In this document: positions 18,361 to 55,553 of the stretch, piece by piece | Layout: each line of letters starts with the position of its first letter | Numbering within the stretch: the first letter of the stretch is position 1 | Assembly (NCBI GenBank): GCA_014377485.1 | Contig: JACMPM010000101.1 | Coordinates: forward strand, 1-55,899 | Direction of reading: 5' to 3' | Source of the DNA: Bacteriovorax sp. | GTDB taxonomy: Bacteria > Bdellovibrionota > Bacteriovoracia > Bacteriovoracales > Bacteriovoracaceae | Length of the DNA stretch: 55,899 nt | Translations under genes and position numbers: made by a program | Notes under the pieces: generated by a model | Databases searched by the model: none | The model's input: only the letters and a program-made list of their open reading frames with translations | What the model was told of the DNA's origin: nothing

Positions 18361-18571
18361 TACTTGTCAAGTCACTTAAGTATTTGATTTTAATGAGTGC
18401 ATGTTTCTGTATGACAGCAAGCCAGAGCATGAAAAACTTAGTTGTAGCTGAAAAAATTCCTTAAAATCTTAATTTCTGAATATTTTCAAATTAACTTCCT
18501 CAGCTGAGAGTAGTAAGTAACTGAGGTTAAGCGAAAACGTAACGACGTAGATAAGCCTATTTCACAAGAAC
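18361..18571 (+). repeat. R repeat copy 1 (R1), degenerate long form
   Basis: The right half (CTGAGGTTAAGCGAAAACG, then CTATTTCACAAGAAC) closely matches R3 and R4. The left end ACTTGTCAAGTCACTTAAG is a degraded version of the TTCTTGTCAAAT start. Total length is about 211 bp, like R3, instead of the usual 120. No gene boundary lies close to its right end; the next candidate is the micro-frame at 18757. Confidence 0.6.
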
Positions 18572-18704
18572 AACTTTTCTTGGCACTTTTCCGCCAATCT
18601 ACGGGAAAAACAAACTCTCTTCCTCACGATTAAATAACTAGTTACAGAAAAAATTCTTCGATTTTTGAAATTTTTATTCATAATTCAATTCTGATGTATA
18701 TTAT

Positions 18705-18813
18705 TTTCACCGGTGAAACAAATCTCTTGAGAGTTTACACTAAAGGAGTCAAACCAATGACATTTAGAAAGAACATGCACGATGGAATCAAAGTTTGTGA
18801 ACTTGAAGAGTAG
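18705..18813 (+). other. 14-bp palindrome followed by an 18-codon micro-frame with a strong ribosome site
   Basis: TTTCACCGGTGAAA (18705-18718) is a perfect palindrome. It is followed by AAAGGAG and, 9 bases on, an ATG at 18757 opening an 18-codon frame (MTFRKNMHDGIKVCELEE) ending TAG at 18811-18813. It could be a regulated small peptide, a leader, or the remaining N-terminus of a lost gene. The rest of 18814-18946 holds nothing I can name. Confidence 0.35.
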
Positions 18814-18946
18814 GGTCGCTCCTAAAACATAAAATTGGAAAAAAAGTTATTAGTTTTTCAAAAGTACCTAGAAACTTTTATTAAAGTTAAAAAAATATAC
18901 TAGCGAACTTGCCACTAATAATTTTCTGACGACATTTACAAGATTT

Positions 18947-18986
18947 AAAAAGGCCCTTGAAATCTATAAAGTTTCTGGGCCTTTTT
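18947..18986. terminator. Bidirectional terminator-like hairpin (family C, copy 1)
   Basis: AAAAAGGCCC pairs with GGGCCTTTTT and, after a TT/TG mismatch, GAAA pairs with TTTC around a 9-base loop. A and T tracts on each side allow termination both ways. The same two-helix layout with compensating bases recurs at 19634-19669 and 22129-22164; each copy lies shortly to the left of an R repeat. Confidence 0.8.
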
Positions 18987-19093
18987 AATTTTAGAAAGTA
19001 TCTTTGAAATCTAATTGAGAAGCGGTTATATCTTCTTTACAGTTATCTTAAGACTTTAAATCCAAAGACTGAGACCAAAAAAACTTTAAATTG

Positions 19094-19213
19094 TTCTTGT
19101 CAAATGAGCTTAGATACTAGGAGGGTCAAACAAGCCCGAATGAGCTTACGAGAAGTAAGTGAATGAGAGCGCAGTGAAGGCGTGACAACGAAGATAAGTT
19201 TATTTCACGAGAA
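19094..19213 (+). repeat. R repeat copy 2 (R2)
   Basis: A standard 120-bp copy. It starts TTCTTGTCAAATGAGCTTAG and ends AAGTTTATTTCACGAGAA; the two ends pair with the usual C:C mismatch. The apical hairpin is CTTAC-gagaa-GTAAG. Its right end is 25 bases from the stop codon of an endonuclease I tail on the minus strand. Confidence 0.9.
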
Positions 19214-19238
19214 CACAATTTAGACCTATTTTGATTGT

Positions 19239-19290
19239 TTACTTACTGCAGGCTTCAAGAAGGTCAGTATTCCTAATCCCCTGCACCTCA
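19239..19290 (-). pseudogene. Endonuclease I (EndA/NucM) C-terminal tail remnant
   Basis: Read on the minus strand this stretch gives EVQGIRNTDLLEACSK and a TAA stop at 19239-19241. It matches the end of endonuclease I proteins (VQGNxNxxxxxAC). The second remnant at 21153-21521 ends in a similar EVQQNKNLDLMEACQKQVK. There is no start and no body: the [2Fe-2S] gene at 19297 directly abuts it, as if the endonuclease body had been replaced up to its last 17 codons beside R2. Confidence 0.7.
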
Positions 19291-19296
19291 AGACTA

Positions 19297-19563
19297 TTAG
19301 AGCTTATTTTTTACATCTTCGATAAAGGCAAGGACATCGTTCAAGCAGCACTTTCCTGAAGGATTTGATACATCACAAAAGCAACCTGAATTTTTCATTT
19401 TAGCTTTGATGTCATTGAGTATTTGATCTTCTCTTCCATTTTTAACTGATTCATATAATTCTTTTTTAGAATGTTTAAAACAATAGCAAATTAATCCTTC
19501 TAGATTTTCTAAATCTAGATTAGTATCACTCGCTTTCTTGTTTTCGTCACAGCATTTTTTCAT
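19297..19563 (-). CDS. BFD-like [2Fe-2S]-binding protein
   Basis: 88 residues. LICYCFKHSKKELYESVKNG supplies CxC, and GCFCDVSNPSGKCCLNDVLAFI supplies the second cysteine pair, the spacing of Fer2_BFD domains (bacterioferritin-associated ferredoxin, NirB and CopZ-like). An extra CC pair sits at residues 4-5. Such small proteins bind a [2Fe-2S] cluster for iron or copper handling. No partner oxidoreductase is near. It is the only gene between R2 and R3. Confidence 0.7.
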   Translation of the reverse strand: MKKCCDENKKASDTNLDLENLEGLICYCFKHSKKELYESVKNGREDQILNDIKAKMKNSGCFCDVSNPSGKCCLNDVLAFIEDVKNKL

Positions 19564-19633
19564 TGGTTAACTTTAGTATTTTATCGCTTGAATGGACATA
19601 AAAAATGCCAAAATTATAAATACTTTAGAATCA

Positions 19634-19669
19634 AAATGCCCCTGAGATTTTTATGGTCTCCAGGCATTT
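19634..19669. terminator. Terminator-like hairpin (family C, copy 2)
   Basis: AAATGCC pairs with GGCATTT and GAGA pairs with TCTC, separated by CC/CA, around a 9-base loop. The bases differ from copy 1 but pairing is kept. It lies 28 bases left of R3, downstream (minus-strand sense) of the gene at 19958. Confidence 0.65.
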
Positions 19670-19697
19670 GAAAAATAAAATATTCTAATTTCAATTA

Positions 19698-19904
19698 TTC
19701 TTGTCAAATAGGTTTAGATTCTAAGCACGGGCGATTGCAACCGAAAGAGCTTACGAATAGTAAGTCACTGCAAGCGGCAAAGTGTGAGAGCACTTTGAAT
19801 GCTTAGCTAGCTTTGGTGCAAGTGTCTCTTAAAGACATTCAGCGGGCAAGGACTCTGAGGTTAAGTGAGAACGTAACGTTGTTAATGAGTGAACCTCACA
19901 AGAA
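19698..19904 (+). repeat. R repeat copy 3 (R3), long form
   Basis: Starts TTCTTGTCAAATAGGTTTAG and ends GTGAACCTCACAAGAAT, 207 bp. The apical hairpin is CTTAC-gaata-GTAAG. It shares the segment CTGAGGTTAAGTGAGAACG with R1 and R4 (a subfamily) and carries about 85 extra bases between the apical hairpin and the right arm. 53 bases separate it from the stop codon of the minus-strand gene on its right. Confidence 0.85.
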
Positions 19905-19957
19905 TAATAAACCCATTACGTTGCCAGTTTAATACAGACCTCAAACGTTTTTTTAAA

Positions 19958-21076: not shown

Positions 21077-21152
21077 AATATTTCCTAAATTTTTAACTTA
21101 ATTAGAACATTTTTTTTTGAAAAGGCAAATACTAGGGCGGCGGTGCTACTCA

Positions 21153-21947: not shown

Positions 21948-22128
21948 GCCATAAGCTGGTATTCCACAGGTCAGATATTTTTTAAATTCACTTTCAAGAT
22001 GAAAGGGCACCCATAGGACAAATTAGGCTATAAAATAAAAAACTAATTCGATCACGGGGACGACCTTTTTGAGCTGAATCGGCTCATGAAATATGGTCGC
22101 TCTTATTTAGACGAATAAAATTAAGACA

Positions 22129-22164: not shown

Positions 22165-22191
22165 AAAAAAATTAATTTTTCTTTTTCCTAA

Positions 22192-22312
22192 CTCTTGTCA
22201 AATGAGCTTAGTTACAAGGCACGGATTTACGCAACCGATGGAGCATACGACTGAGTATGTGACTGAGGTTAAGTGAGAACGTAACGCCGTAAATGAGCAC
22301 ATTTCACAAGAG
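22192..22312 (+). repeat. R repeat copy 4 (R4)
   Basis: Starts CTCTTGTCAAATGAGCTTAG and ends GCACATTTCACAAGAG. The outer pairs are CTCTTG/CAAGAG where other copies have TTCTTG/CAAGAA, a compensatory change. The apical hairpin is GCATAC-gactga-GTATGT. Its right arm overlaps the end of the minus-strand gene at 22304, giving that gene its stop codon (TTG TGA). Confidence 0.9.
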
Positions 22313-22972
22313 CCGAACTTCGTTGATGACGTCTTGAAACTCTTTATAGCTCAGTGGCTTCTTGCACCTCTTCGCCCCCTCCCTTAATGCCCACATCATC
22401 TTCTTCTCATCTCCCAGAACTCCCCATGCAAGTGCGTAGTGAACATATGAATTGTAATATTTTTTATCAAAATCTACATACACTTCCCATGCTTTAATAG
22501 ATTTCTTCGCCCAAGATTCTGCTCTTTTCCGTTGTCCTTTTTTGGCAAGTACGAGTGCATATTGAGCACCACCGACACCGGAAGAGTAAAGTTCATATTT
22601 GTCTTTAGTTTTTTTGTATTCGTTTATACCAAGTTCATATTGTTTTTTAAAATTGTGACTTTGATAGTAATATTCGTTTTTTATAAAATTTTTCGCCCAA
22701 GGAGATAGACCTTTCAATTTATTTAAAAAGGTTTTCATTTTCGCTATGGCATTTTTACGTTCGGTTGTATGTTTTGATTTTGAGTCTGTTAGGTAGAAAT
22801 CACAAAGTACAGAATAGTATTTAAATTCCACCACCACATCACCAGGAAATAACTTCAAGCCCATTTTGCAATGATCAACTGCCTTTTTATAGTTTGCATC
22901 CGATACAAACTTAAATCCGGCCATCCACCAATCACGTCTTCTCTCAATGTATTCGTCAGTATATTTAGGCAT
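22304..22972 (-). CDS. TPR-like helical repeat protein
   Basis: 222 residues, all helical, with tetratricopeptide-like pairs (NYKKAVDHCKMGLKLFPGD, QYALVLAKKGQRKRAESWAK, HYALAWGVLGDEKKMMWALR). No signal peptide. It probably is a protein-interaction scaffold; partner unknown. The last codons (CGG CTC TTG TGA) lie inside the right arm of R4, so the repeat supplies its C-terminus and stop. Its start is 18 bases downstream of the HEPN-like gene, so both are one unit. Confidence 0.65.
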   Translation of the reverse strand: MPKYTDEYIERRRDWWMAGFKFVSDANYKKAVDHCKMGLKLFPGDVVVEFKYYSVLCDFYLTDSKSKHTTERKNAIAKMKTFLNKLKGLSPWAKNFIKNEYYYQSHNFKKQYELGINEYKKTKDKYELYSSGVGGAQYALVLAKKGQRKRAESWAKKSIKAWEVYVDFDKKYYNSYVHYALAWGVLGDEKKMMWALREGAKRCKKPLSYKEFQDVINEVRLL

Positions 22973-23998: not shown

Positions 23999-24064
23999 TT
24001 CCTTCCTAAAGTTTCAAAAAATAATTTGTGTATTTATAAATTATTAAAAATCTAACTCAACCTA

Positions 24065-24184
24065 TTCTTGTCAAATAAGCTTAGGTGCTAGGAAGGTCAA
24101 ACAAGCCCGAGGAGCATACGGAGTAGTATGCGACCGAGAGCGAAGTGATGGCGTGACAACGCAGATAAGTTTATTTCACAAGAA
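24065..24184 (+). repeat. R repeat copy 5 (R5)
   Basis: Starts TTCTTGTCAAATAAGCTTAG and ends AAGTTTATTTCACAAGAA, 120 bp. The apical hairpin is GCATAC-ggagta-GTATGC. Only three bases separate its right end from the stop codon of the replication initiator gene. Confidence 0.92.
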
Positions 24185-24187
24185 TAA

Positions 24188-25759
24188 CTAATGTGAGGGT
24201 CTCTTATCAAAAAGTTTAAACTCCTGCAGAAAATCCTTCGCTACAGTCCTAACCTTATCCTGAAACAGCAGCGTATACGCCATCTGCATCTCATCGATGC
24301 CTTCTTCCAGAAGCTTCGTTTTTGCAGTCTCTTCGATCAATTTTTTATATTTCTGATCTTTCATAATATCTTCTAATAATTTATTAAAAGACTGATCGAA
24401 CTTTTTTTCTTCTTCTTGTTTTTGAAGTTCTTTTTTATAACGGTGCTGTTGGATGACAGCTAATTCTTTTTGCTTTTTAACTTCGGCGACTCTTTCAGTT
24501 AGAAATGATCTGTACTTATCGGGATACAACAAAGTTTCATTGATCATTGATTCTAGAATTGATTTAGCTAAAGCTTTCAATGTTTTTGTAATTTTATAAT
24601 TACATTTGAAAATTTGCCAGAAAGTTAGATCAAGGCAAAATTCTGATGCTAGATATTCACCTTTGTTCCATTTGAATTTTTCATTTCCAGTACGTGCTTG
24701 ATAAAGTGAATCAAATTCGCGTCTGTAATTTTCAAGATCGATTTCATTGAAGTCGATTGTTTTTAAAGAAGCTTCCCCATATTCGAAAACTAAATCTTCA
24801 AAGAACTGATCACCTTTATTTTCAATTAAGGCCGGATCGTGGAAATGAATCATGATCTCCCAGTCTTCTTTGTCTCTTATTTTTGTAATACTGAAATCAA
24901 AGACAGCTGTGATTTCTCTAGTTTTTTGAAGGTATTCAAATATTAATCTTCTTCTCTTATCTTTTTGTGAATCTTGAAGCCCAATGACTTGCGCAAGCTC
25001 GTTAAGATTAAAAAGAAAGTCAGATCCAAAACTTCTTTTCTTAGAATAAAGGAAAATTAAAATTCTTCTTTGATGACCTGCTGAGAGTGAAAGATATTCT
25101 TTCTGTTCAACAACAGAAACATATTCATCATAAAGGTTCTTAATAATGTTGTGATCAAACTCAACATAGAAAAAGTCAGAATGGTTCGATAAAAAACCTT
25201 CTCTTGTTCCACCAGAACGAATACGACCGCTCTTTAAAATAATCTTGGTATTTTCTTCGGCCTGGAGAATCTTTCCAGAAGGTGAATGATATCTAAAATT
25301 CTTAAATGAAAGGTTCTGACTTGCGATACGCTTTATGGCCTTCGAGATTCGGTTTGAATTATTCTCGCTTAGTCCAAGCCTTCTACATACCTCTGCAAGT
25401 GTGTAATACACTCTACGCTCGGTTCCGGCCTCAATAGCATGTATTGGAACAAGGGCCGAGCGTTGCTCGAAGGCCATTGTTAATAAAACTAGAAGCACAT
25501 CGTTTTCAACGGACTGAAGTGGACCTTCATCTGATTGAGTTGTGACCTCAAGCATATAAATGGAACCATTATCGTCGACTGTACGAACAACTGATTTTTG
25601 TTTTTCAAATTTAGCGTTTTCGTCAATGTAATATCTGAATGGCAAAGCTAGACCGAGATTAACTTCAATCTTAAAGTTATTTTCTTTACCATTGGTAATC
25701 TCTGGAACATTAGGCAATATTAAATCGTGTGACGAATCATTCTCGTTGATCGATTGCAC
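24188..25759 (-). CDS. Plasmid replication initiator protein (RPA/TrfA-like)
   Basis: 523 residues. The N-terminal and central part match replication initiator protein A (PF10134): LGLALPFRYYIDENAKFEKQ, NDVLLVLLTMAFEQRSALVP, YYTLAEVCRRLGLSENNSNR (helix-turn-helix), LSLSAGHQRRILIFLYSKK and LNELAQVIGL (second winged helix). The C-terminal 180 residues are a charged coiled coil. It would bind the iterons immediately upstream (25826-26712) and open the origin. Its start is about 65 bases from the nearest iteron, so autorepression through iterons is likely. Its stop abuts R5. Confidence 0.85.
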   Translation of the reverse strand: MQSINENDSSHDLILPNVPEITNGKENNFKIEVNLGLALPFRYYIDENAKFEKQKSVVRTVDDNGSIYMLEVTTQSDEGPLQSVENDVLLVLLTMAFEQRSALVPIHAIEAGTERRVYYTLAEVCRRLGLSENNSNRISKAIKRIASQNLSFKNFRYHSPSGKILQAEENTKIILKSGRIRSGGTREGFLSNHSDFFYVEFDHNIIKNLYDEYVSVVEQKEYLSLSAGHQRRILIFLYSKKRSFGSDFLFNLNELAQVIGLQDSQKDKRRRLIFEYLQKTREITAVFDFSITKIRDKEDWEIMIHFHDPALIENKGDQFFEDLVFEYGEASLKTIDFNEIDLENYRREFDSLYQARTGNEKFKWNKGEYLASEFCLDLTFWQIFKCNYKITKTLKALAKSILESMINETLLYPDKYRSFLTERVAEVKKQKELAVIQQHRYKKELQKQEEEKKFDQSFNKLLEDIMKDQKYKKLIEETAKTKLLEEGIDEMQMAYTLLFQDKVRTVAKDFLQEFKLFDKRPSH

Positions 25760-25825: not shown

Positions 25826-26712
25826 AATATCCCAATTTGCACAGATAGATGAAAATATCCTAGTCTTCACAGATGTCGAACATTATCCCCGACATCACAG
25901 GCCGCCAGAGGCCAAGAGATTAGTAATGCAAAAAACATCCGTCACTTCACAGGATGATGAGAAATTTTCGAGATTGATCTGTGACGACAGAGATAAAGAG
26001 ACTGTGAAGTGAGAGATATACAAACACCACCTGTGATGAGCGGGATGAAGCATCTGTGAAGCGAGAGATAACGCTCTGTGAGGCCACGGATGCAGGTTCA
26101 TTTAAACACTTGAAAAGATAGTTTTTCATCCCGGACATCACTGACTGTATGTATGTATATATTTAAGTATTAATATATAGAACGTGAAGACAGGGATATC
26201 TTTTAAGATCTAAATTCAAATTTTTGACTTCATATAAAGATAATATCCCTGTCTTCACAGATGAATGCTTAAATCTTCTGAATAGCAGCGCATATTTAAA
26301 ATAAAACATCCCCATTATTACAGCTTGATACACATAAAATTAAGAACTTAATAATAGATATCCGTCTCTTCACAGATCGACTACTCATAATATCCCCGTC
26401 TTCACAGACTACTGGGATTGATAAAACGATATATCCCTCTCTTCACAGATCTATCCCCATAAAGACCAACTAAACTCCCCATAATATCCCTGTCATCACA
26501 GGCCTCAGAGAAAAAATCAAAATTTTTTTATTAATAGTCGATTCATCTGTGAAATGAAGGATGAAATAAATATCAGGATGATATTTATTGTCGCCATAAG
26601 CGCCCGTAGGGAAGTGAGCTGGACGCGAGCGTAACAATTTAATTTTGTATTTATTAAATATCTCTCTCATCACAGGCCTTGAGATATTTGTCTGTGATGT
26701 GTGGGATGCAGA
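25826..26712. other. Replication origin with about 20 iterons
   Basis: Copies of a 17-bp iteron (consensus ATCCCTGTCTTCACAGA) occur in both directions: plus-orientation copies near 25827, 25855, 25882, 25939, 26127, 26248, 26308, 26357, 26389, 26430, 26483 and 26657; inverted copies near 25977, 26001, 26031, 26052, 26075, 26182, 26550 and 26690. Spacing is irregular and AT-rich stretches lie between. It is directly upstream of the initiator gene, the standard oriV arrangement. Two outlying iterons lie at 27246 and 32625. Short open frames in this stretch are by-products of the repeats. Confidence 0.88.
26588..26637 (+). repeat. Structured repeat B, copy 1
   Basis: TTGTCGCCATAAGCGCCCG continues to GCGAGCGTAACAA. 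The ends TTGT and AACAA pair, with GC-rich hairpins inside. Related copies: 28128-28175 (minus strand), 45850-45925 and 54226-54296 (both inside R repeats) and a diverged long form at 46966-47106. This copy lies inside the iteron region. Confidence 0.6.
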
Positions 26713-28100: not shown

Positions 28101-28245
28101 TGGGGTCCACGTCCCCCAGATCCCTATTTGTTACGCTCGCATCGTACTCGCTACTCTTCGAGCGCCTACGGCGACTAAAAATAGCTTCATGCTATTTTTA
28201 TCGCTCGCGCTTTAGTTTGTTTCGATAAATCGAAATGTAGTTAGT
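28101..28245. repeat. Composite repeat D with embedded B copy
   Basis: TGGGGTCCACGTCCCCCA at the left and GCTCGCGCTTTAGTTTG with the hairpin TTTCGATAAATCGAAA (28220-28235) at the right are also found together at 42039-42112. Here about 80 bases are inserted between them: a B copy on the minus strand (28128-28175) and the hairpin AAAAATAGC-ttcat-GCTATTTTT. The rest of 27957-28528 is AT-rich, with no gene that I can support. Confidence 0.7.
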
Positions 28246-29329: not shown

Positions 29330-29397
29330 AATTTCCTAAAGGGCAAATTCTTATCGAGAGTAAAAGTAAGTTGTAAAAAAAGTTCCAGCACACCAAA

Positions 29398-29517
29398 TTC
29401 TTGTCAAATGGGATTAGATTCTAGAAACAACAAGCAAGCCCGAGGAGCATACGAAGTAGTATGCGACCGAGAGCGAAGCGTAGTTGAGACGACGAAGATG
29501 GTCTCATTTCACAAGAA
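29398..29517 (+). repeat. R repeat copy 6 (R6)
   Basis: Starts TTCTTGTCAAATGGGATTAG and ends ATGGTCTCATTTCACAAGAA. The second stem (GGGATTAG/ATGGTCTC) differs from R5 but remains paired. The apical hairpin is GCATAC-gaagta-GTATGC. Seven bases separate its right end from the stop codon of the ParA-partner gene. Confidence 0.92.
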
Positions 29518-29524
29518 TGAAAGC

Positions 29525-30085
29525 TTATTTTAACAGCGAGTTAAAATAACTTTCAAGCGCTTCTTCCGTTTGTAGTGTGGTCAGGTCAGTATTATTACTC
29601 CCTATCTTCGAAAACACGGCCTTCAATGCTGCTCTTATTACTGTATTTTCAGTGATCCTTGGAAGTGATCCTTTATTTGCAATCGAGCTTCTTTTTCTTG
29701 CAAGAGAAATTTCTGCTGATAGATCTCTAATTAGATAAAATTCTTCTTCGTTAAAAGTGACCATTTTGTTAAGAAATTTATCGTAAGTTTTCGTTGGATA
29801 TTTTCTGAATTTTTGTAATTCAGAACCAATATTTCCTATTTCTTCATTGTTGTTTGAAGCAGAAACTGATCTGGGTGCTTCCGCTCTCATCTCTACTTTC
29901 TTTTCAATATGAACTTCAGGTCTTTTTTCGATTCGAATTTCTGTCCTTTCTTCAACTCTATTTTCTTCCTGAGCACTCCACTTTGTACCAGTATCAAGAG
30001 GAGATTTATATGCACCTGGTTCTTCTTTTTTAATTCTCTTGCTTGTTGCAAAGATACTGAAATCGTCTTGAGTATTATCGTTCAT
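29525..30085 (-). CDS. Centromere-binding partner of ParA (ParB-like role)
   Basis: 186 residues from the ATG at 30085, which has AGGAG upstream and follows the parA stop directly; a longer frame running into parA is unlikely. The N-terminal half is low-complexity and charged, with glutamate/arginine repeats (ERTEIRIEKRPEVHIEKKVE). The C-terminal part (residues about 95-186) is a compact helical domain (NKMVTFNEEEFYLIRDLSAE, ITENTVIRAALKAVF) that resembles ribbon-helix-helix or small DNA-binding domains. Position after parA makes a partition adaptor likely; no classical ParB motifs are present. Confidence 0.65.
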   Translation of the reverse strand: MNDNTQDDFSIFATSKRIKKEEPGAYKSPLDTGTKWSAQEENRVEERTEIRIEKRPEVHIEKKVEMRAEAPRSVSASNNNEEIGNIGSELQKFRKYPTKTYDKFLNKMVTFNEEEFYLIRDLSAEISLARKRSSIANKGSLPRITENTVIRAALKAVFSKIGSNNTDLTTLQTEEALESYFNSLLK

Positions 30086-30086
30086 A

Positions 30087-30962
30087 TTATACCTCTGCTC
30101 CTTTAGTGTTAACTTTGGATGTCGTTGTAGATGATGTTGAAGCTGCTTTTTCAAGAGCAATCATTCTGCTTAACATCTCCTTTGTTAATTTCAAGTATTC
30201 TTTATGTCCTCGCTCACTTGGCTTTGTGACATCATAAATTGTCTGTTGTCCTCTGGGTAAAAAGGCAAACTTTGAAGCGATTGGGATAATAGAATCAAAT
30301 AAATGAATTCCTGATTTTTTACAATACTCACCTAGTTCAACGATAGCTTCTTTTGACTTATTAATTCGGTTATCAGAACTACTGACAAACACCCCTAGAG
30401 CTTCTAGATCTTTATTATGGCCCTTTTTAACCTTCATCGCTGTTGAGATTGTCTGTCCAATTGATCCGAGAGAAAAATCAGTCATCTGAACTGGTGTGAT
30501 GAAATAGTCACTAGCAATTAAACTAGAGACAGTTTCAATTCCAAGTTTTGGCGTATTATCGATCAGGACAAATTGAAAATCCTGAATATCATCATTTTCA
30601 ACGATCAGATCTTTTAAAAGTGTGTAACCTTCAATTCCTAACTGAGTCAGCGTGCTCTCGATTGAATAAGAGTTCCCACGTGCATCTGTTACTTCGGAAG
30701 GGATAATTGATAGATTTGGATTTTTGGTCTTAACGATCACTTCACTAAGTGATCCACCGTTAGCAATAATGTGACAAATCCCCTTCTGAGATTTTGAATC
30801 AAGATGACCAATAGTTGAGTAAGTTGAGTTACCTTGTGAAGTATCCCAGTCTATGATGAGTGTTTTAAAGCCCATGTTCGCAAGTGCCGTTGCGATATGA
30901 ATTGTTGAAGTCGTCTTCCCGACCCCGCCTTTTTGAGCAATGACTGAAATAATTCTTGGCAT
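30087..30962 (-). CDS. parA: ParA partition ATPase
   Basis: 291 residues from the ATG at 30962 (GGAGG 4 bases upstream); an in-frame ATG further upstream would overlap the operator palindrome. Deviant Walker A KGGVGKTT at 11-18, LIIDWDTSQGN (Walker A' region) and FVLIDNTPKLG (Walker B) identify a type Ib-like ParA without an N-terminal HTH domain. It pulls plasmid copies apart on the nucleoid. It forms an operon with the partner gene, and the palindromes at 30979-31003 and 31233-31257 upstream are candidate operator/centromere sites. Confidence 0.92.
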   Translation of the reverse strand: MPRIISVIAQKGGVGKTTSTIHIATALANMGFKTLIIDWDTSQGNSTYSTIGHLDSKSQKGICHIIANGGSLSEVIVKTKNPNLSIIPSEVTDARGNSYSIESTLTQLGIEGYTLLKDLIVENDDIQDFQFVLIDNTPKLGIETVSSLIASDYFITPVQMTDFSLGSIGQTISTAMKVKKGHNKDLEALGVFVSSSDNRINKSKEAIVELGEYCKKSGIHLFDSIIPIASKFAFLPRGQQTIYDVTKPSERGHKEYLKLTKEMLSRMIALEKAASTSSTTTSKVNTKGAEV

Positions 30963-30969: not shown

Positions 30970-31400
30970 TCCATGGATCTTTTAAAGTTTGAAACTTTAA
31001 AAGTATGCAAGTCTCAAAGTTTTGAAGTGTTAAATTCACTAACTCTAAGAGTTTAAAAGTTTTAATTATTTAAAGTATAAAACATTACAAGTTTTAAGCA
31101 ATAAAAGTTTTTAACTTTTATAGTTAGTAACTTTTAAACTTGGATTCTTTGAAACTTTACTAGTGTTGAAGTTTTAGAGTTTGAAAGATTAACACTTTTA
31201 AACTGTCAAACTGTGCGTGCGTTGAGCGTATACTTTTAAAGTTTGAAACTTTAAAACTGATCATCAGAATATCCCAAATAATCACCAGAAGCTTCATAAG
31301 ACTTTTAAAGAGAACTTCAAAAAATGCATAGTGAGAGTAGGGGAGTTTTAAAAACAATAAACTTTCATACTTTAAAAGTATTAAAGTTTAAAACACACAT
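30970..31400. other. Candidate partition centromere and par operator
   Basis: A dense, AT-rich array of AACTTTTA/TAAAAGTT-type half-sites. Two near-identical 25-bp palindromes (half CTTTTAAAGTTT) stand at 30979-31003, just before parA, and 31233-31257. More than ten single half-sites lie between and after them. This fits a parS-like site bound by the ParA partner and doubling as the operator of the par promoter. Open frames here are by-products of the repeats. Confidence 0.75.
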
Positions 31401-31525: not shown

Positions 31526-31651
31526 GACCTCTGGTCAAATGTCGTCAGCCTCAAGAAGCGATTGAGAGAGGGCGAGGAGTTTACGAATAGTAAATGACCG
31601 AGACAGAGACGACTGAGCGACGACCAGGATGGCGGTATTTCACAAGAGGTC
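31526..31651 (+). repeat. R repeat copy 7 (R7)
   Basis: Outer arms GACCTCTGGTCAAAT and ATTTCACAAGAGGTC. The outermost GACCTCT/AGAGGTC pairing is private to this copy, so the stem extends outward with its own compensating sequence. The apical hairpin is TTTAC-gaata-GTAAA. The right arm supplies AGAGG, a ribosome site, 4 bases before the ATG at 31654. Confidence 0.88.
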
Positions 31652-31653
31652 CC

Positions 31654-31875
31654 ATGGCACAATATAAGAATTTAGGCCAATTCACAAGAGTCATCGACGG
31701 ATTAAAGTCATTAGATGCTAATATCCTCATAACAGAAAAAACTGAAGTCAGTCCATTTTTGTCAGATATTAGAGTTAAGATTGAAATTGAAGCAAACTAT
31801 GAACAAGTTCTAAAGAATCTGAGTGAAGTTAAAAATTCAAAGACTCCTTTAGAAACGATACGACCGCTTCAGTAA
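31654..31875 (+). CDS. Small protein starting at the R7 border
   Basis: 73 residues from the ATG at 31654 (MAQYKNLGQFTRVIDG). Upstream codons lie within R7 and are unlikely to be translated. The sequence alternates beta and helix (DANILITEKTEVSPFLSDIR, VKIEIEANYEQVLKNLSEV); no family recognised. Its ribosome site appears to be the AGAGG of the R7 right arm. Co-directional with the next gene, with a gap of about 35 bases. Confidence 0.6.
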   Translation: MAQYKNLGQFTRVIDGLKSLDANILITEKTEVSPFLSDIRVKIEIEANYEQVLKNLSEVKNSKTPLETIRPLQ

Positions 31876-35606: not shown

Positions 35607-35660
35607 TAAATAAGTACTAAGTTAGAAGAATCGGAAAAATAAAAAATATACCTAATCCTA

Positions 35661-35780
35661 TTCTTGTCAAATGAGCTAAGTTACTAGGCACGGGCGAGTG
35701 AAATGGAGGAGCTTACGAAGAGTAAGTGATCGACATTGAAAGAGCCTGTAACGAAGTAAATGAGCACATTTCACAAGAAT
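35661..35780 (+). repeat. R repeat copy 8 (R8)
   Basis: Starts TTCTTGTCAAATGAGCTAAG and ends TGAGCACATTTCACAAGAA, 120 bp. The second stem (GAGCTAAGTTAC with GTAAATGAGCAC) is paired with wobble positions. The apical hairpin is CTTAC-gaaga-GTAAG. It is followed after 23 bases by the hydrolase start codon. Confidence 0.92.
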
Positions 35781-36702: not shown

Positions 36703-36831
36703 TGAATTATTGTCAAATGTGTCCAGATTCAACGAACGACTAAGCGAGTACGATGAGCATACGGAGTAGTATGCGATAGAGTAAGAGACGAGGAAGAGAG
36801 GAAGAAGATGGATTTATTTCACAATAATTCA
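36703..36831 (+). repeat. R repeat copy 9 (R9)
   Basis: Outer arms TGAATTATTGTCAAAT and ATTTCACAATAATTCA. The usual CTTG/CAAG is replaced on both sides by ATTG/CAAT, a double compensatory change. The apical hairpin is GCATAC-ggagta-GTATGC. Its right end is 2 bases from the start of a second, frameshifted copy of the hydrolase 3' end. Confidence 0.92.
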
Positions 36832-40701: not shown

Positions 40702-41181
40702 GTAAAATTATTTACACAAAAGGCTAAGGATATTTCTGATAAATATATTGATCCACCATATACGACTGATTTTGGAATCATGTTTTTACCATTCGAAGGA
40801 ATCTACGCTGAAGTAGTTCGTAAAGCTAGTTTCCTAGAAGATCTTCAAAGAGAGTATAAAGTAATCGTTACAGGCCCCTCTACATTGGCCGCACTATTAA
40901 ACAGCCTTCAGATGGGCTTTAAAACGCTCGCAATTCAAAAAAGCAGTAGTCAGGTATGGAAAGTGTTAGGTGCAGTTAAAACGGAGTTTGAGAAGTTTGG
41001 TGGCATGCTTGAAAAGTCACAGCGAAATATCCAATTAGGCTTGAATGATTTAGATACCCTTATTGGAACTCGATCAAACATGATTCGTAGCAAGTTGAAG
41101 TCTATTGAAAGCTTATCAGAAAGTGACACAAAAATGATGCTTCCTGAAATTTTAGCGATAGATGCGGATGATGATACATAA
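40702..41181 (+). pseudogene. RmuC C-terminal remnant
   Basis: From 40702 the frame reads FTQKAKDISDKYIDPPYTTD, FGIMFLPFEGIYAEVVRK, YKVIVTGPSTLAALLNSLQM, FKTLAIQKSSSQVWKVLGAV and KTEFEKFGGML, the conserved C-terminal half of the RmuC recombination-limiting protein (usually 400-500 residues). There is no start codon before 40780 and a stop stands just upstream, so the N-terminal coiled coil is gone. It may be a fragment carried along with the island. 40538-40701 holds nothing else recognised. Confidence 0.8.
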
Positions 41182-42112: not shown

Positions 42113-42258
42113 TATGAGAAAAAAAGGGTATGCGATCTAAAGCAGACAACCGATATAAAAGCCATCTCCCTGAAGTAATTAAAAAGTCTCAACTAAGACT
42201 AAGGCACAATATTTTATCAAGAAGCCCCACCATTTAACCAACTAGAAACTTTCCCACC

Positions 42259-42378
42259 TTCTTGTCAAATTCGTTCAGATTCTAGGAATGGCAAGCAAGC
42301 TCGAGGGAGCTTATGAATAATAAGTGACCGAGAGTGAAGGGACGGCACGACAACGAAGATGAATGAATTTCACAAGAA
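42259..42378 (+). repeat. R repeat copy 10 (R10)
   Basis: Starts TTCTTGTCAAATTCGTTCAG and ends TGAATGAATTTCACAAGAA. The second stem TTCGTTCA/TGAATGAA is unlike R2 or R6 but still paired. The apical hairpin is CTTAT-gaata-ATAAG (compensated against CTTAC/GTAAG). Three bases separate its right end from the umuC stop. About 45 bases to its left are shared with the left flank of R11. Confidence 0.92.
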
Positions 42379-42381
42379 TAG

Positions 42382-45787: not shown

Positions 45788-45984
45788 CCTGCTTGTCAAA
45801 TTCGCTCAGCTTCTAGAAATGGCAAGCAAGCTCGATGGAGCTTATGAATTATTCTCAGGATTGAGAATAATGTCGCCGCAGGCGCTCCAAAGGAGCAAGC
45901 CTCAGGACGAGGCGCAGACAATAGTATGAGATCGACATTGAAGGGACGGTATGACAACGAAGATGAATGAATTTCACAAGTAGG
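45788..45984 (+). repeat. R repeat copy 11 (R11) with a nested B element
   Basis: Outer arms CCTGCTTGTCAAATTCG and TGAATTTCACAAGTAGG, with private outermost pairs CCTG/TAGG. The apical hairpin is split by about 75 bases (45850-45925) of B element: ATTCTC/GAGAAT hairpin, GTCGCCGCAGGC, GCTC/GAGC, GCCTC/GAGGC. The right arm contains TAGGA and ends 4 bases before the ATG of the WYL gene, so it may provide the ribosome site. Confidence 0.9.
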
Positions 45985-45988: not shown

Positions 45989-46963
45989 ATGAAAGATTAT
46001 ACAAAGACGGATGCATGTCTCTTATTAATCCAAACCATCTGTAAGGCTCCACGCCTGACCCTAACCGATAAGACCGTTCGTGAGATCCTTGGAGACCCTT
46101 CTAAGGCACAATACCATAAGCTGATTAATGAGCTGACGACCGATGTAGGGGATAGGAAAGCGATACTTTTAAAGCAGAAAGACTCTGAGGGAAATATTCA
46201 GTTTCAATTGAATCATTGTGACTGGGTTAATTTCATTGAAGGGACTCAGGAAATTCATTTCATTCTTAAATCTTATAAGGAGATGGGACATCTATTTCCC
46301 AAGATTGATGTTGATGGGGTTTCTGTTCATGCAAAAAATATCGATAGGAGATTTCACTATTTAAGTCAGGTGAAAGTAAAGGATTCAACTGAATCTGTTG
46401 CTGGTGTCCAAACACACCTGGAGTCTTTGATAAAGGCGTTGGTAGGCAATAGACGTATTTTTATTAAGTACAAAGATAATGATAAAAATAAAGAAAAGAC
46501 CGCAACAGAGATATTCCCTTTAACACTTGTTCAATACCGAGATGATTTATACCTGGTGGCCTATAAAACAGAAATGGGAGTTGAGAATCTAAGACACTAT
46601 AAGGTTTCACGAATTTTAGAAATTATTGAGTCGAAATCTGGCTTTAAATATCCAAACGAAGCAAAGTGGAATCCAAAAGAATATTTTAAAAACAATTCCG
46701 GTATCTTTGTTGGAAACGAGAAGAAGGCAGTATTTAGAATTTATAATGAATCAAAAAAAATTCTCTCAGAAAAAAGCTTCTTTAATTCTACGATCATTAA
46801 TCAAATGAAAGATTATGATGAGTACCAATGTGTTTATTCGAATGTAGAAGAATTTATGGGCTTCTTATTCATCTATGGCCAGGACGTGGAGATAGTAGGA
46901 GATGCAGTTTTGAAAAAGGCGTTCAGAGAAAAAGCTGAAAAAATTTTATTGCGAAATAAATAG
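45989..46963 (+). CDS. WYL-domain transcription regulator
   Basis: 324 residues: N-terminal winged helix (DACLLLIQTICKAPRLTLTD, VREILGDPSKAQYHKLINEL), WYL domain around residues 150-215 (NRRIFIKYKDND, ATEIFPLTLVQYRDDLYLVA, ENLRHYKVSRILEI), then a WCX-like C-terminal domain ending KKAFREKAEKILLRN. WYL domains sense nucleic-acid or nucleotide ligands and often regulate phage-defence loci. It starts 4 bases after R11 and precedes the protease-like gene and the HNH-AAA-DnaB operon, which it may control (inference). Confidence 0.85.
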   Translation: MKDYTKTDACLLLIQTICKAPRLTLTDKTVREILGDPSKAQYHKLINELTTDVGDRKAILLKQKDSEGNIQFQLNHCDWVNFIEGTQEIHFILKSYKEMGHLFPKIDVDGVSVHAKNIDRRFHYLSQVKVKDSTESVAGVQTHLESLIKALVGNRRIFIKYKDNDKNKEKTATEIFPLTLVQYRDDLYLVAYKTEMGVENLRHYKVSRILEIIESKSGFKYPNEAKWNPKEYFKNNSGIFVGNEKKAVFRIYNESKKILSEKSFFNSTIINQMKDYDEYQCVYSNVEEFMGFLFIYGQDVEIVGDAVLKKAFREKAEKILLRNK

Positions 46964-46965
46964 CA

Positions 46966-47106
46966 TGACGCTATTTATTGTCACCGCAAGGTTTGTGCCT
47001 GCTGCAAAAGACGAAAGTGTTTTGAGGCAAAGCTCCCTTGACGTTAAAGTCTAATAAAGACTTTTGGCGGCAATGATCTAGACAAGTACGATGCGAGCGC
47101 AACAAA
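46966..47106 (+). repeat. Diverged long copy of the B element
   Basis: ATAGC-atgac-GCTAT hairpin, then TTATTGTCACCGCAAGG at the left and AAGTACGATGCGAGCGCA ending ACAAATA at the right. The right part is nearly the reverse complement of 28124-28147. About 80 bases in between contain further small hairpins (AAAGTC/GACTTT). It fills the gap between the WYL gene and the convergent protease-like gene. Confidence 0.5.
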
Positions 47107-50936: not shown

Positions 50937-50963
50937 AATTTAAACAAAGGGACTCTAATACTA

Positions 50964-52214
50964 ATGAAAAAAAAATCAAATTACCTACCCAAGAATCTTT
51001 CCTTTAACGATCTAAATGAATGTTTAATCTTTCTGGGACACGATCGCCAAAAGAATAAAGCTGATGCTCAAAGCAAGATGGAAGATGTTGAAGCTGGGCT
51101 TAGTGATGATGAATATGAAGTGCTGATTGACTACATAAATGCAATGGAGATGATGGAACACAATTTTAAACTAAAAGAAATTATTCCATTCTGTAAAAGA
51201 GAAGATTTAATAAAACTTGCTAAAAAAATCTATCTTATAGGTTACATGGGTGTTGCTGATCTAGATATATCAAGCCACTTAACTCAACTTGAAATTGCAG
51301 CAGACTTTGAAAACTTAATTGATGACATCAATGATAAAGACATTATTGATCTATTAATTGAAATCGATGATGAGCATGACGAAATTGTTCTGAATGAATT
51401 CATTGTACCTGATGATGTGTTGAAAAGTTACGTTCTTCACAAGATAGGTATTAAAACTAAAAAGCAAAGTGGGGATGAAATAAACTTATCCACTAACTAT
51501 AATCTAGATCTTTTAAATATGGATAGCTTGTGCCCCCACGTCCATATTGAAGAATTAAAAAAAGTACATCAATACCTAAAAAGACCAGGCCCTAAGAAGT
51601 TTTATAACTGGGTAGTACTTTTTGAAGGTGCTCCAGGCACTGGGAAAACAGAGTATGCAAAGTTTTGTGCAAAAACGATGGAGCAACATTTTGTATACAC
51701 TTCTGCAGGAGGTCTTTTATCTGGATTTCATGGTGAATCAGAAGCAAATATTAAGAAACTTTTTGACGAAGCAGCAAGAAAAAATGCAATTATTTTTATC
51801 GACGAAGCAGATTCACTTGGGAGTAATAGAGCAAATGCGAGCCAAAGCTTCGAAACAAGTATTGTTAATGAGCTTCTTATACAGATCGAAAAATACCCAG
51901 GGATTGTCATTTTATCTACGAACATGACTGATAATTTAGATCCTGCCCTAATTGATAGGAGTATTCAGAAGATTACTTTTAACTATTTATCTAAAGAACA
52001 AGCACAAATAGCTTTTAATGTTTTTTTTGAGAGAAAGCTAACAGCATCTGAGCGCGAGAAGCTCAATAATGTAAAAAACTTGAGTCTTCGTAATTTCAGA
52101 GTAGTAATGCAGAAAACGTTTTTTACTGAAGAAGCAGACAATCTTAAATTAATAAAACTTTTACAGCTTGAGGTAGATTTTAGAACTAGGATCGAAGATT
52201 TAGGTGGCAAGTAA
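50964..52214 (+). CDS. AAA+ ATPase of the HNH-AAA-DnaB operon
   Basis: 416 residues. The first 190 are a helical domain of unknown family. AAA+ core: Walker A EGAPGTGKTEYA at about 220-231, Walker B AIIFIDEADS at about 275-284, then the signature NASQSFETSIVNELL, sensor 1 VILSTNMTDNLDPAL and an arginine near the finger position (IDRSIQKI). It resembles FtsH/proteasomal-type and ClpX-like classical AAA proteins. The C-terminal fusion partner in the next gene shares the NASQS signature, so the two AAA modules are related and could form a mixed ring. Confidence 0.82.
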   Translation: MKKKSNYLPKNLSFNDLNECLIFLGHDRQKNKADAQSKMEDVEAGLSDDEYEVLIDYINAMEMMEHNFKLKEIIPFCKREDLIKLAKKIYLIGYMGVADLDISSHLTQLEIAADFENLIDDINDKDIIDLLIEIDDEHDEIVLNEFIVPDDVLKSYVLHKIGIKTKKQSGDEINLSTNYNLDLLNMDSLCPHVHIEELKKVHQYLKRPGPKKFYNWVVLFEGAPGTGKTEYAKFCAKTMEQHFVYTSAGGLLSGFHGESEANIKKLFDEAARKNAIIFIDEADSLGSNRANASQSFETSIVNELLIQIEKYPGIVILSTNMTDNLDPALIDRSIQKITFNYLSKEQAQIAFNVFFERKLTASEREKLNNVKNLSLRNFRVVMQKTFFTEEADNLKLIKLLQLEVDFRTRIEDLGGK

Positions 52215-52351
52215 TGCGTAAAATTCTGGGTAATTAAGTTAAGGGAAAACCATTTGCCCAACCTGATAGGCCAAATTTCGCAAATATACTAACAAGTCTC
52301 ATTTTTTAATACATTTCTAAGTTATAAGCTACAAAACATAAAAGGTAAATT

Positions 52352-54088
52352 ATGGATTCAATAACAGAATCATTAAAAGAAGTTCTTAAAAACTTACAAG
52401 ATAAATTAAAATCATCAGATAATTTTAAAGGTCTTAAAACAGGTTATAAGGGACTCGATGAATGGCTTCAGGGATTAAAAAATGGAAATATAATAATCAT
52501 TGGATCCAGACCAGCAATGGGAAAAAGCTCGCTGGCCATCAGTATTGCCTTTCAGGCCTGTACTCTTTCAAAACGTCCAGTCATCTATTTTTCAAATCAA
52601 TTAAGTACTAATGAAATAGCGATGCGAATGCTTCTTGGTGTTGCCAAGGTTGATAATAAAAAAGTGCATAATAAAAAATTCTTAGAAGAAGACTTAAGAC
52701 AAATAGGAGCGGCTACAAAAGAAATAGCCGAACTACCAATTTTTTTAGATGACTATAACTCTTTAAATGTTGAAGAAATTATAAGCACATGTCGTAAGAA
52801 AAAAAATGAAGAAGATTTAGGTTTAATAATTATCGATAATCTTCAGGATATTAAAAGCAATGATTCATTAGAGTCCAATGAACAAATTTCTAAAAATTTA
52901 AAATTATTAAAGGCAATGGCGCGAGAGCTAGATTGCCCCGTTATCATATTATCTCAGGTTGGCCGGGGAGTTGAAGAGCGCTACAATAAACGTCCATATC
53001 TAGCAGATCTTAAAGATTCAGGAATGATAGAGCAATTGGCCGATGTAGTTTTGTTTATCTATCGTGAAGATCTCTATAATCCAAAATCAAGAGAAAAGGG
53101 CCTTGCGGAAATAATCATTGCAAAAAATCGGCATGGGGAGACTGGGATAGTAAAATTATTGTGGAAGGGAAGCTATTCAAGCTTTGAGGAACTAAGCCAA
53201 GGTAAAAAGCCACCATCTATTCCAGAAGATTCAAATGAACAAAATCCACCAACGGAATCACAATTTGTACCACCAAGTTTAACAGATTTTATAAGAATGC
53301 CAAAAAAGAATGTTACAAATACAGGAATCCAATTAAAAAAAATTAACTCAAATTATATGATTGATGGTCTAAGCGCTGACCATGATTTAAAAGTTGTAAC
53401 CGAAAAATTGGTTAAATATAATAAGAAGATGATAAGTGGAAAAAGTGACGTAAGTCTAAATATCATATTGAGCGGTCCTCCGGGCTCAGGAAAAACTGAA
53501 TACGCTAAGTATTTATCCCAAGAATTAAAAAAAGGGTTTATTTTCAAGCAAGCAAGTGATCTAAAAAGTAAGTGGGTGGGTGAGGGCGAAAAAAACATCA
53601 AAAAAGCCTTTATGGAGGCCCAGGAATCTAAAAGCATTCTATTTATTGATGAGATCGATACATTCTTACATTCAAGAGATAATGCATCTCAAAGTTACCA
53701 AATTAGTGAGGTTAATGAATTCCTTATTTGCTTAGAGAACTTCAAAGGAATTTTTATGTGTGCCACAAACTCAACTGAGCGAATGGATCCCGCAGCTTTA
53801 AGAAGATTTCTTTTTAAGATTAAATTCGACTTTCTAGATTCAACAGGTGCTTTGAAGTTCTATAATCATTTCTATAATGAATATGATGCTTCTGAATTAA
53901 GTATTCAAGAATTAGCAGATCTAAAACAAATTAAGAATTTAACTCCAAGTGATTTTAATACAGTTAAGAGAAAACTAATATTTGAAGACGAAATTAATCA
54001 CAATCAAATATTGAACTTACTTAAACAAGAAGTGGCCCATAAGAAATTTCACACTAAGGGAGTGATGGGTTTGGGAGTTAATATATAG
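52352..54088 (+). CDS. DnaB-type helicase domain fused to an AAA+ ATPase
   Basis: 578 residues with two ATPase modules. Residues 25-285 are the RecA-like DnaB helicase domain: LKTGYKGLDEWLQGLKNG, Walker A GSRPAMGKSSLA near 51-62, VIYFSNQLSTNEIAMRMLLG, Walker B LGLIIIDNLQDI, VIILSQVGRGVEERYNKRP and DSGMIEQLADVVLFIYRED. The DnaB N-terminal primase-binding domain is absent. Residues 330-560 are an AAA+ module: SGPPGSGKTEYA near 373, SILFIDEIDT, NASQSYQISEVNEFLIC and ATNSTERMDPAALRRF. This fusion is unfamiliar to me. A diverged copy of its last 48 bases follows R12. Confidence 0.85.
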   Translation: MDSITESLKEVLKNLQDKLKSSDNFKGLKTGYKGLDEWLQGLKNGNIIIIGSRPAMGKSSLAISIAFQACTLSKRPVIYFSNQLSTNEIAMRMLLGVAKVDNKKVHNKKFLEEDLRQIGAATKEIAELPIFLDDYNSLNVEEIISTCRKKKNEEDLGLIIIDNLQDIKSNDSLESNEQISKNLKLLKAMARELDCPVIILSQVGRGVEERYNKRPYLADLKDSGMIEQLADVVLFIYREDLYNPKSREKGLAEIIIAKNRHGETGIVKLLWKGSYSSFEELSQGKKPPSIPEDSNEQNPPTESQFVPPSLTDFIRMPKKNVTNTGIQLKKINSNYMIDGLSADHDLKVVTEKLVKYNKKMISGKSDVSLNIILSGPPGSGKTEYAKYLSQELKKGFIFKQASDLKSKWVGEGEKNIKKAFMEAQESKSILFIDEIDTFLHSRDNASQSYQISEVNEFLICLENFKGIFMCATNSTERMDPAALRRFLFKIKFDFLDSTGALKFYNHFYNEYDASELSIQELADLKQIKNLTPSDFNTVKRKLIFEDEINHNQILNLLKQEVAHKKFHTKGVMGLGVNI

Positions 54089-54121
54089 AGTCCCTAGCTC
54101 GTGCATAGCACGGCGTTCCCC

Positions 54122-54318
54122 TAATTGTTGTCAAATGAACTCAAATTCAAGAAACAAGGAACGAAGCTAAGGAGCATACGATCAGTATGTGATCGAAGCT
54201 GAGCTGACGAAGTGACGCCAAAAATTCTCAGGATAGAGAATTTTGTCGCCAAAGGCGCTCTATGAGCGAGCTTCATGGATGAAGCGAAGACAAAATTGGG
54301 TTTATTTCACAATAATTA
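54122..54318 (+). repeat. R repeat copy 12 (R12) with a nested B element
   Basis: Outer arms TAATTGTTGTCAAATGAAC and GGTTTATTTCACAATAATTA. The apical hairpin GCATAC-gatca-GTATGT is intact. A B element is inserted nearer the right arm (54226-54296): ATTCTC/GAGAAT, then TTGTC closing with GACAA around GCC/GGC, GCTC/GAGC and GCTTCA/TGAAGC hairpins, a small cloverleaf. The right end is 3 bases from a second copy of the DnaB-AAA gene's tail. Confidence 0.92.
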
Positions 54319-54321
54319 AAT

Positions 54322-54375
54322 AAGAAATTTCATACTAAAGGAATAGTTGGATTGGGAATTACACATGGAAACTGA
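54322..54375 (+). pseudogene. Remnant of a second DnaB-AAA gene 3' end
   Basis: Reads KKFHTKGIVGLGITHGN and stop, against KKFHTKGVMGLGVNI and stop at the end of the intact gene (54041-54088). The similarity begins 3 bases after R12. Its last bases overlap the ATG of the following gene at 54365. Confidence 0.8.
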
Positions 54376-54955
54376 AGACTCGTATAAAACCATCTGGGGT
54401 AAAAAAATAAAAGGAAATGAATGTGTTTTATTAAGAGGATTTATCTATAAGAAAGACGGTCAGTTAAATTCAATTTTTCATAGGTCACATGACTTTACTT
54501 ATTTTGAAAGATTCAAGTCCGATGTTAAAAAGTCAGCTGAAGTTCTTAATGGGAAATATTACCGCGGGGGAATGTCGGGGCCTAACGATTTTCAAGATGA
54601 AGAGGTAAGAAATAAACCAATTTGTCCCATTCCCTTAGAATATCTAGATCCTCCAATTGCACTTCTATGTAAATTATTGCCCATATATGGGATAAGCACG
54701 GTATACAGCTGTGGTGGCCATAAAGAAGACGAGAGCTGTCCAACGATTAGCTTTAGAAGTAACCTAGATCACATAAAAGCTAAGCATCTGTTCCATGAAG
54801 TCCTTCAGAATGATTTTTCAAAGGTCATTTTTTCAACAGGAAGGGGATGGATGGGTTTGAAAGTCGAATTCTTAATGGATAAGCATAATGAAGAATCCTA
54901 CTTTGAGATGAATTGGTTTATTCATAAATTAGCAAAAAACCTACTGAAAATTTGA
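54365..54955 (+). CDS. Hypothetical protein, phage or plasmid type
   Basis: 196 residues from the ATG at 54365; codons upstream belong to the remnant. Notable are KYYRGGMSGPNDFQDEEVRN, a proline-rich ICPIPLEYLDPPIALLCKLL and GISTVYSCGGHKEDESCP, where SCGGH with a nearby Cys could bind a metal. The pattern GxxTxxSCxGH recurs in small phage-encoded proteins I have seen, without known function. It lies directly downstream of the R12 remnant and may once have been the gene following a DnaB-AAA gene. Confidence 0.6.
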   Translation: METEDSYKTIWGKKIKGNECVLLRGFIYKKDGQLNSIFHRSHDFTYFERFKSDVKKSAEVLNGKYYRGGMSGPNDFQDEEVRNKPICPIPLEYLDPPIALLCKLLPIYGISTVYSCGGHKEDESCPTISFRSNLDHIKAKHLFHEVLQNDFSKVIFSTGRGWMGLKVEFLMDKHNEESYFEMNWFIHKLAKNLLKI

Positions 54956-55072
54956 ATAAGTGTATTTAGAAGTAAATAATTTAATAATCTTACAAAGGGG
55001 AGAAGTCTCATTTTTTGAGTTACCACACTGATAAATTATCCAATCAATATATTGGTGAGATGGAGTGTTTAT

Positions 55073-55417
55073 ATGACTAATTATGAATTATTATGTGAAA
55101 AAATCGAAAATCTAGAACAATTAGTAATCGACTTTAAGAGTCTTGCTGAAGATATTAAAAAATCAAATCTTACAGAAATACTTCATGGGTCGACACCTAT
55201 AATTGCTGATCAAATTCTCAGTGAAGATTTGATGTATGCTGATGCTTTAAAATTTGTAGTTGAACATAAATCTGCAAGTATTTCGTTACTTCAAAAAAAG
55301 TTTGGAATTGGGTATCAAAGAGCTTCAATGCTGATCTCAAAATTAGAAACAAGGGGAGCTATCGGCCCCGTAAATGGTTCAATGCCTAGAAAAGTTTTGT
55401 TGTTTAAAAGTAGATAG
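55073..55417 (+). CDS. Stand-alone FtsK gamma-type DNA-binding protein
   Basis: 114 residues from the ATG at 55073 (GGAG 8 bases before). After an N-terminal coiled coil (LLCEKIENLEQLVIDFKSLA) the C-terminal 65 residues form an FtsK gamma winged helix: YADALKFVVEHKSASISLLQ, KKFGIGYQRASMLISKLETR and GAIGPVNGSMPRKVL. In FtsK this domain reads KOPS sites and steers the translocase to dif. Without a motor, this protein could act as a regulator, or direct plasmid DNA to a host machine. Confidence 0.85.
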   Translation: MTNYELLCEKIENLEQLVIDFKSLAEDIKKSNLTEILHGSTPIIADQILSEDLMYADALKFVVEHKSASISLLQKKFGIGYQRASMLISKLETRGAIGPVNGSMPRKVLLFKSR

Positions 55418-55485
55418 AAACTTTCAATTGAAACGAGTGAAGAACGAGCAAAAGAAGAGGTCTAGGTAGTTGAGAGCTGCTACCG

Positions 55486-55553
55486 AATCTTGTCAAATGT
55501 GTTCATCTTCAAGAAGCTAAAAGACAGTCTGATGAGCATACAACTAGTATGAA
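55486..55553 (+). repeat. R repeat copy 13 (R13), left half only
   Basis: ATCTTGTCAAATGTGTTCAT, then the apical hairpin CATAC-aacta-GTATG. After that the sequence changes to AT-rich DNA and no ATTTCACAA right arm follows. It marks a broken end of the R array and borders a region (55554-55771) in which I see no other element. Confidence 0.7.

Follow-up and report, generated by a model that had tools for sequence, protein, structure and literature searches.

Background

ERIC sequences (also called IRU or RU-1) are 127-bp palindromic MITEs of Enterobacteriaceae and Vibrionaceae, and how repeats of this type move has been an open question since the early 1990s. The range reported for ERIC comprises Enterobacteriaceae and Vibrionaceae (PMC10969869), and the mechanism by which ERIC-like repeats are mobilised has not been elucidated (PMC2759123, PMC2229807). 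Among other folded elements, the attC sites of sedentary integrons keep their recombinogenic strand on the leading-strand template, and inversion makes the cassettes unstable (PMC11023631).

Here we analyse a family of folded repeats, R, in a 55,899-nt stretch of Bacteriovorax sp. DNA (the window). A preliminary description had read its copies as delimiting cargo genes in a candidate cassette array, in the manner of integrons. Our verdict is that R is real, conserved and polar, and we see in it a new ERIC-like variant, not a cassette system. R resembles ERIC in length, in forming a hairpin over its full length with an apical GGAGCTTAC..AGTAAGTGAC hairpin, in the purine-rich mismatches on one strand, in the ~70-bp insert with matching hairpin loops that some copies carry without loss of the fold (as do R3, R11 and R12), and in its intergenic dispersal and placement just 3′ of stop codons (cus, ybh and nar in E. 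coli). It differs in its outer stem (TTCTTGT...ACAAGAA, without TATA ends), in its occurrence in other phyla, in its strict replication polarity and in its dense array on a plasmid. With the attC sites of sedentary chromosomal integrons R shares a long imperfect hairpin, asymmetric mismatches, uniform polarity and the location of the better-folding strand on the leading-strand template, but it has no R/L boxes and no adjoining integrase, and its chromosomal copies are not tied to mobile cassettes. REP/REPIN repeats, with their RAYT, are likewise dispersed intergenic palindromes near gene ends; unlike them, R is much longer, shows no GTAG foot on inspection, lacks a co-occurring Y1 transposase and keeps to a single orientation.

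Copies of R in the window

Between 18.3 and 55.6 kb the window contains 11 full-length and 2 partial copies of an R hairpin of ~122 nt, all on the + strand, with a left arm TTCTTGT-C-AAAT and a right arm ATTT-C-ACAAGAA. They are listed here with the plasmid genes referred to below; bit scores are those of the R covariance model.

3591..11385, − strand: conjugation genes (TraD/TraG-like coupling protein, VirB4/TraG-type ATPase), in a region without R
R1, 18361..18571, + strand: degenerate; left part divergent, clear right arm at 18508-18571
R2, 19092..19214, + strand: full-length ERIC-like hairpin, 125 bits
R3, 19696..19905, + strand: internal insert, about 87 nt longer, 47.6 bits
R4, 22190..22313, + strand: 103 bits
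R5, 24063..24185, + strand: 131 bits; the − strand replication gene homologue stops 3 nt away
24188..25759, − strand: putative plasmid replication initiator; homologues of 23-92% identity in 12 related genomes
R6, 29396..29518, + strand: 128 bits
30087..31010, − strand: ParA-type ATPase (Pfam)
R7, 31527..31649, + strand: 105 bits; about 5 nt 5′ of a + strand ATG near 31654
R8, 35659..35780, + strand: 109 bits; 24 nt 5′ of a + strand alpha/beta-hydrolase gene
R9, 36705..36828, + strand: 108 bits
R10, 42257..42379, + strand: 129 bits; 3 nt from the stop of a − strand umuC-like gene
R11, 45788..45983, + strand: apical-loop insert of ~72 nt (about 45850-45921), 72 bits
R12, 54123..54320, + strand: insert of ~75 nt (about 54214-54296), similar to the ERIC insert
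R13, 55486..55553, + strand: left half only

R2 and R4-R10 are plain full-length copies (122-124 nt, 103-131 bits), while R3, R11 and R12 span the full length and have internal inserts of about 70-90 nt; the best E-values in the window reach 1e-29. R1 scored 24 bits over 18455-18571, with a blastn match at 18508-18575, and the half copy R13 gave no match with the R covariance model. The thirteen folded repeats of the preliminary description are thus in place and all on the + strand, but one of them is degenerate and another is half a copy. Its statement that they are absent from the transfer region (1-18.3 kb) was borne out, with 0 R matches at E<=10, whereas the role of delimiting cargo genes was too narrow, the replication gene homologue and the ParA operon being bounded by R5, R6 and R7 as well. 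Most window copies are 60-77% alike and have unrelated flanks; R10 and R11, which have flanks in common, indicate that some copies arose by segmental duplication.

Three stand-alone pieces resembling the insert module of R11 and R12 are located at 26563-26637 (including a + strand piece at 26569-26605), 28128-28204 and 46951-46986, and consist of inverted repeats GTCGCC/GGCGAC with short stem-loops. The cargo includes defence-like genes at 268-1362, 16459-17322, 37552-40365 and 50964-54088, of AbiGi-like and AbiEii-like types, together with a gene for a restriction-modification enzyme of MmeI type and one for a DnaB-helicase-AAA fusion (52352-54088), which has an AAA protein as its neighbour. 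At 40780-41181 there is an RmuC-like C-terminal fragment (133 aa), apparently a remnant.

Fold and strand asymmetry

From its closed TTCTTGT/ACAAGAA ends R continues through a C.C mismatch and the AAAT/ATTT pairing into mostly symmetric internal loops, and in a ten-sequence alignment two-sided compensatory changes that keep the pairing were found in 21 of the 32 consensus pairs. The opposite strand was matched in R4 and R8 only, at 26-29 bits against 103-109 bits on the R strand, so that the orientation calls are unambiguous. Predicted folding energies made the R strand more stable than its complement in 18/18 copies. The R strand is G-rich, with a skew (+0.04 to +0.38) opposite in sign to that of the surrounding DNA, which rules out the polarity described below as an artefact of composition.

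Relationship to ERIC

The apical GGAGCTTAC..AGTAAGTGAC of R resembles what we take to be the ERIC primer sequences, and this served as a lead. A covariance model was built from four E. coli ERICs (cus, pgk, ybh and nar). Over 118.6 kb of DNA from this genome and its relative G013, all nine of its matches, the best with E 1e-4, were full-length R elements on the right strand, and over 1.18 Mb of relatives' DNA the three matches at E<=5 were again R elements on the right strand. Conversely, the R model yielded six matches over 240 kb, comprising four of the six E. coli ERICs, on the right strand, and two alphaproteobacterial R copies, with no false site. The ERIC located 5′ of ybfA is 207 nt long owing to an insert, which aligns with that of R12 at a score of 37 (shuffle maximum 35; 0/2000 shuffles reach it) and has hairpins with CAGGA and CATGGATG loops in common with it. 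The R11 insert is clearly like that of R12; its own comparison with the ybfA insert was equalled in 94/2000 shuffles, which alone is not significant.

The kinship is visible with covariance models only, as blastn of R10 gave no match in E. coli. Rfam gave no window match at gathering scores and no match to R5 at E<=1. An E. coli ERIC (L224:9959-10078) matches the Rfam family V_AS5 (RF02818, Vibrio RNA AS5) at 44.5 bits, against a gathering score of 96; since it does so over the full length, V_AS5 appears to be a Vibrio ERIC, and R5 falls short of matching it. No consistent TA target duplication was found at the flanks of the window copies. The covariance searches and the insert comparison make common descent of R and ERIC likely. 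We class R as ERIC-like, and not as ERIC proper, because TA ends and duplications were not seen and ERIC is reported from a different range of hosts. The preliminary description had named identity with a known dispersed element that has a mapped transposase as evidence against a cassette array, and the reciprocal covariance searches come close to this outcome by relating R to ERIC.

Distribution beyond the window

In the same genome, the R covariance model located copies on three other contigs: C35 has three (all −), C25 has two (both +; outer stem different, inner part the same) and C75 has one. The search of relatives with such a model, which the preliminary description had proposed, confirmed the family in 46 of 144 related genomes, but the copies are dispersed beside housekeeping genes and tRNAs and come without an integrase. 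Eight genomes searched at looser limits have 2-22 copies each. Chromosomal copies are single, often hundreds of kb apart and not in arrays, and their neighbours, named from protein sequences, include rpoN, fur, nuoI, uvrA, recO and tRNA genes. An exact-end pattern search of species genomes revealed multi-copy families with the ends, mismatch and fold of R in an alphaproteobacterial and a verrucomicrobial MAG (best copy 59 bits with the R model). Most single matches of the wide pattern scan lacked the fold and were rejected as chance.

The slot 3′ of rpoN is occupied in related species by R, by other long palindromes or by plain terminator-like hairpins, and comparison at this place gave no alignable empty site. 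In 19 genomes of one genus (loci L234-L252) the rpoN stop is followed by species-specific, long, near-perfect palindromes with stems of ~30 bp; one group of these has the inner motif AGACAGTCCTCGCTC...CTGTGGAACTCGG in common, with outer stems unrelated between species. At the same place G129 (L243) has an apparent deletion remnant of the palindrome found in G145 and G175, as expected from palindrome-induced deletion.

Orientation relative to the replication fork

Positive GC skew marks the leading strand. For each of 61 chromosomal copies, drawn from 17 genomes, GC skew was computed over a 20-kb window around the repeat. Read along R, it was negative at all 61; it was also negative at 8/8 copies in the alphaproteobacterial and verrucomicrobial MAGs. 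R therefore reads against the fork. The 61 loci are not all independent, as the genomes behind many of them are related and have some insertions in common; this kinship lowers the effective number and leaves the conclusion standing. Loci of 3 kb on small contigs gave noisier skew with some positive values, as expected for their length. On complete chromosomes the R strand flips between replichores, with 9/9 copies following the rule in G129 (5 minus below 1.33 Mb, 4 plus above 2.5 Mb), 10/10 in G178 (6 minus, 4 plus) and 10/11 in G145, where the single rule-breaker is a weak match (1459003+). Most complete chromosomes have dnaA near coordinate 1; in G183 and G193, where it lies elsewhere, the local GC skew agrees with the R rule. 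On chromosomes the strand that folds better, as judged from the predicted energies, is the leading-strand template, which would be the strand less exposed in single-stranded form.

Since only 59% of genes in the skew windows run with the fork, gene direction is insufficient to account for R polarity, and a by-product of it was ruled out (p about 1e-14). A polarity set at the DNA level and independent of gene direction, as the preliminary description had proposed, is strongly supported, and it follows replication. The six E. coli ERICs are split 3:3. To our knowledge, there is no earlier account of strict replication polarity in such repeats.

Placement at gene and tRNA 3′ ends

A right-hand gene was called for 60 chromosomal copies. 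In 31 of them R ends, on its 3′ side, <=12 nt from a convergent stop codon, and in none <=12 nt from a start codon; in the stop-adjoining cases, about half of the copies, the gene concerned is codirectional with the fork. Of 30 loci in another set, 14 have R abutting the 3′ end of a tRNA, within about 4 nt and mostly without a gap. Three of four E. coli ERICs (cus, ybh and nar) are likewise situated a few nt 3′ of a stop codon. In the window, R4, R5, R6 and R10 adjoin stop codons as on chromosomes: the − strand gene 22304-22972 takes its stop codon from the right end of R4, and in the ParA operon the − strand gene 29525-30160 stops 7 nt from R6. R7, R8 and R11 end just 5′ of start codons, a peculiarity of the plasmid.

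Such placement would agree with R being chiefly a functional two-way terminator or 3′-end hairpin under selection at the mRNA level. The AAAAAGG...CCTTTTT flanks of the G129 and G145 copies are typical of two-way terminators, the spot 3′ of rpoN holds plain terminator-like hairpins in species without R, and in Yersinia ERIC at gene 3′ ends alters the mRNA (PMC10969869). We nevertheless regard it as improbable that this function is the main explanation, as it leaves unexplained why no copy serves fork-opposed genes (59% vs 100%), window copies have no T-run, and R7, R8 and R11 stand directly 5′ of start codons.

Possible mode of spread

We prefer to view R, with a probability of roughly 75%, as a family of ERIC-like, non-autonomous, MITE-like repeats, ~122 bp long and in some copies extended by a ~75-bp insert, that are fork-polar and dispersed on the chromosomes and plasmids of the phylum. 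Copies would be spread by an enzyme supplied in trans, and once in place may act as 3′-end hairpins or two-way terminators. Polarity could arise if insertion uses the single-stranded DNA of the fork in a fixed sense, or if copies facing the wrong way, in which the lagging-strand template would form the stable hairpin, are rapidly lost; both readings fit. No candidate for the mobilising enzyme or transposase of R was identified, Y1 transposases showing no co-occurrence with it.

Insertion of IS200/IS605 elements at fork single strands leaves strict replication polarity. A HUH/Y1 transposase of the IS200/IS605 or REP type, inserting single strands at the fork, would thus be expected to leave the trace seen here, and long hairpins are substrates of this class. 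Its involvement is nonetheless unlikely, as Y1_Tnp is absent from seven R carriers (G178, G069, G132, G095, G122, G097 and G098) and present in G063 and G173, in which R was not found, and the GTAG foot of REP was not seen in R.

Uniform polarity on the plasmid

Under the preferred ERIC-like reading, the family would have multiplied on a conjugative plasmid, and its uniform polarity in the window would most simply reflect one direction of replication or transfer for the whole molecule, which is the weakest step in the argument. GC skew in the window changes sign near 27 kb, at parA and the replication gene homologue (which we take to encode an initiator from its resemblance to Rep proteins, and which has no clear Pfam family), and the polarity of R is unchanged there. 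Read in the R direction, skew at R1-R5 fits the chromosomal rule, is near zero at R6 and is positive at R7-R13. R7-R13 are therefore off-rule; they would fit only if replication of the plasmid ran leftward along its whole length or if skew in this molecule followed gene direction, and the habit of the family explains the uniform window polarity only in part. The C35 copies show a weak fit to the fork rule. A search for relatives of the plasmid with common modules found no close one: the 92% Rep homologue (G004:C117) stops at a contig edge, and the R model found no R at the rep C-terminus copies of G004, where divergence at the very end prevented mapping of the insertion point. A cluster of short repeats (TTTAAAGTTTGAAACTTTAAAAGT) at 30972-31393, 5′ of parA, possibly represents partition sites or iterons.

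That the plasmid polarity is a matter of chance or of descent by local duplication, unrelated to replication, is an account that the shared flanks of R10 and R11 would favour, but we give it little credence: 13/13 copies agree (2^-12), the three C35 copies agree mutually as do both C25 copies, and most copies are 60-77% alike with unrelated flanks.

Least probable of all, and unsupported by our results, is the integron-like cassette array of the preliminary description, in which recombination would act on R as a folded single strand and a trans-acting integrase would move gene+R units: the right ends of R4-R7, R10 and R11 do lie within a few nt of genes of either direction, the variable inner inserts recall attC terminal structures, and the better-folding strand is placed as in sedentary integrons, but no pair of attC boxes (RYYYAAC/GTTRRRY) occurs on either strand of the 13 copies and no recombinase was found among 30 window proteins in a Pfam scan (both as already stated in that description), the five tyrosine-recombinase (Phage_integrase) matches of the genome are all off the R-bearing contigs, chromosomal copies stand singly beside core genes and tRNAs, and R is akin to ERIC.

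Significance

The ERIC-like family described here extends ERIC-type repeats beyond Gammaproteobacteria. Its lock to replication is the interesting part: copies that oppose the fork and lie at stop codons and tRNA ends provide a strong clue either to the substrate, in the form of fork single strands, or to selection on long hairpins. It is conceivable, albeit tentatively, that the whole class of palindromes including ERIC spreads by a fork-dependent, strand-specific process that deposits copies 3′ of genes, with a signature that is perfect here and decayed in E. coli. The polarity of R makes the question of how such repeats move testable on plasmids of known fork direction.
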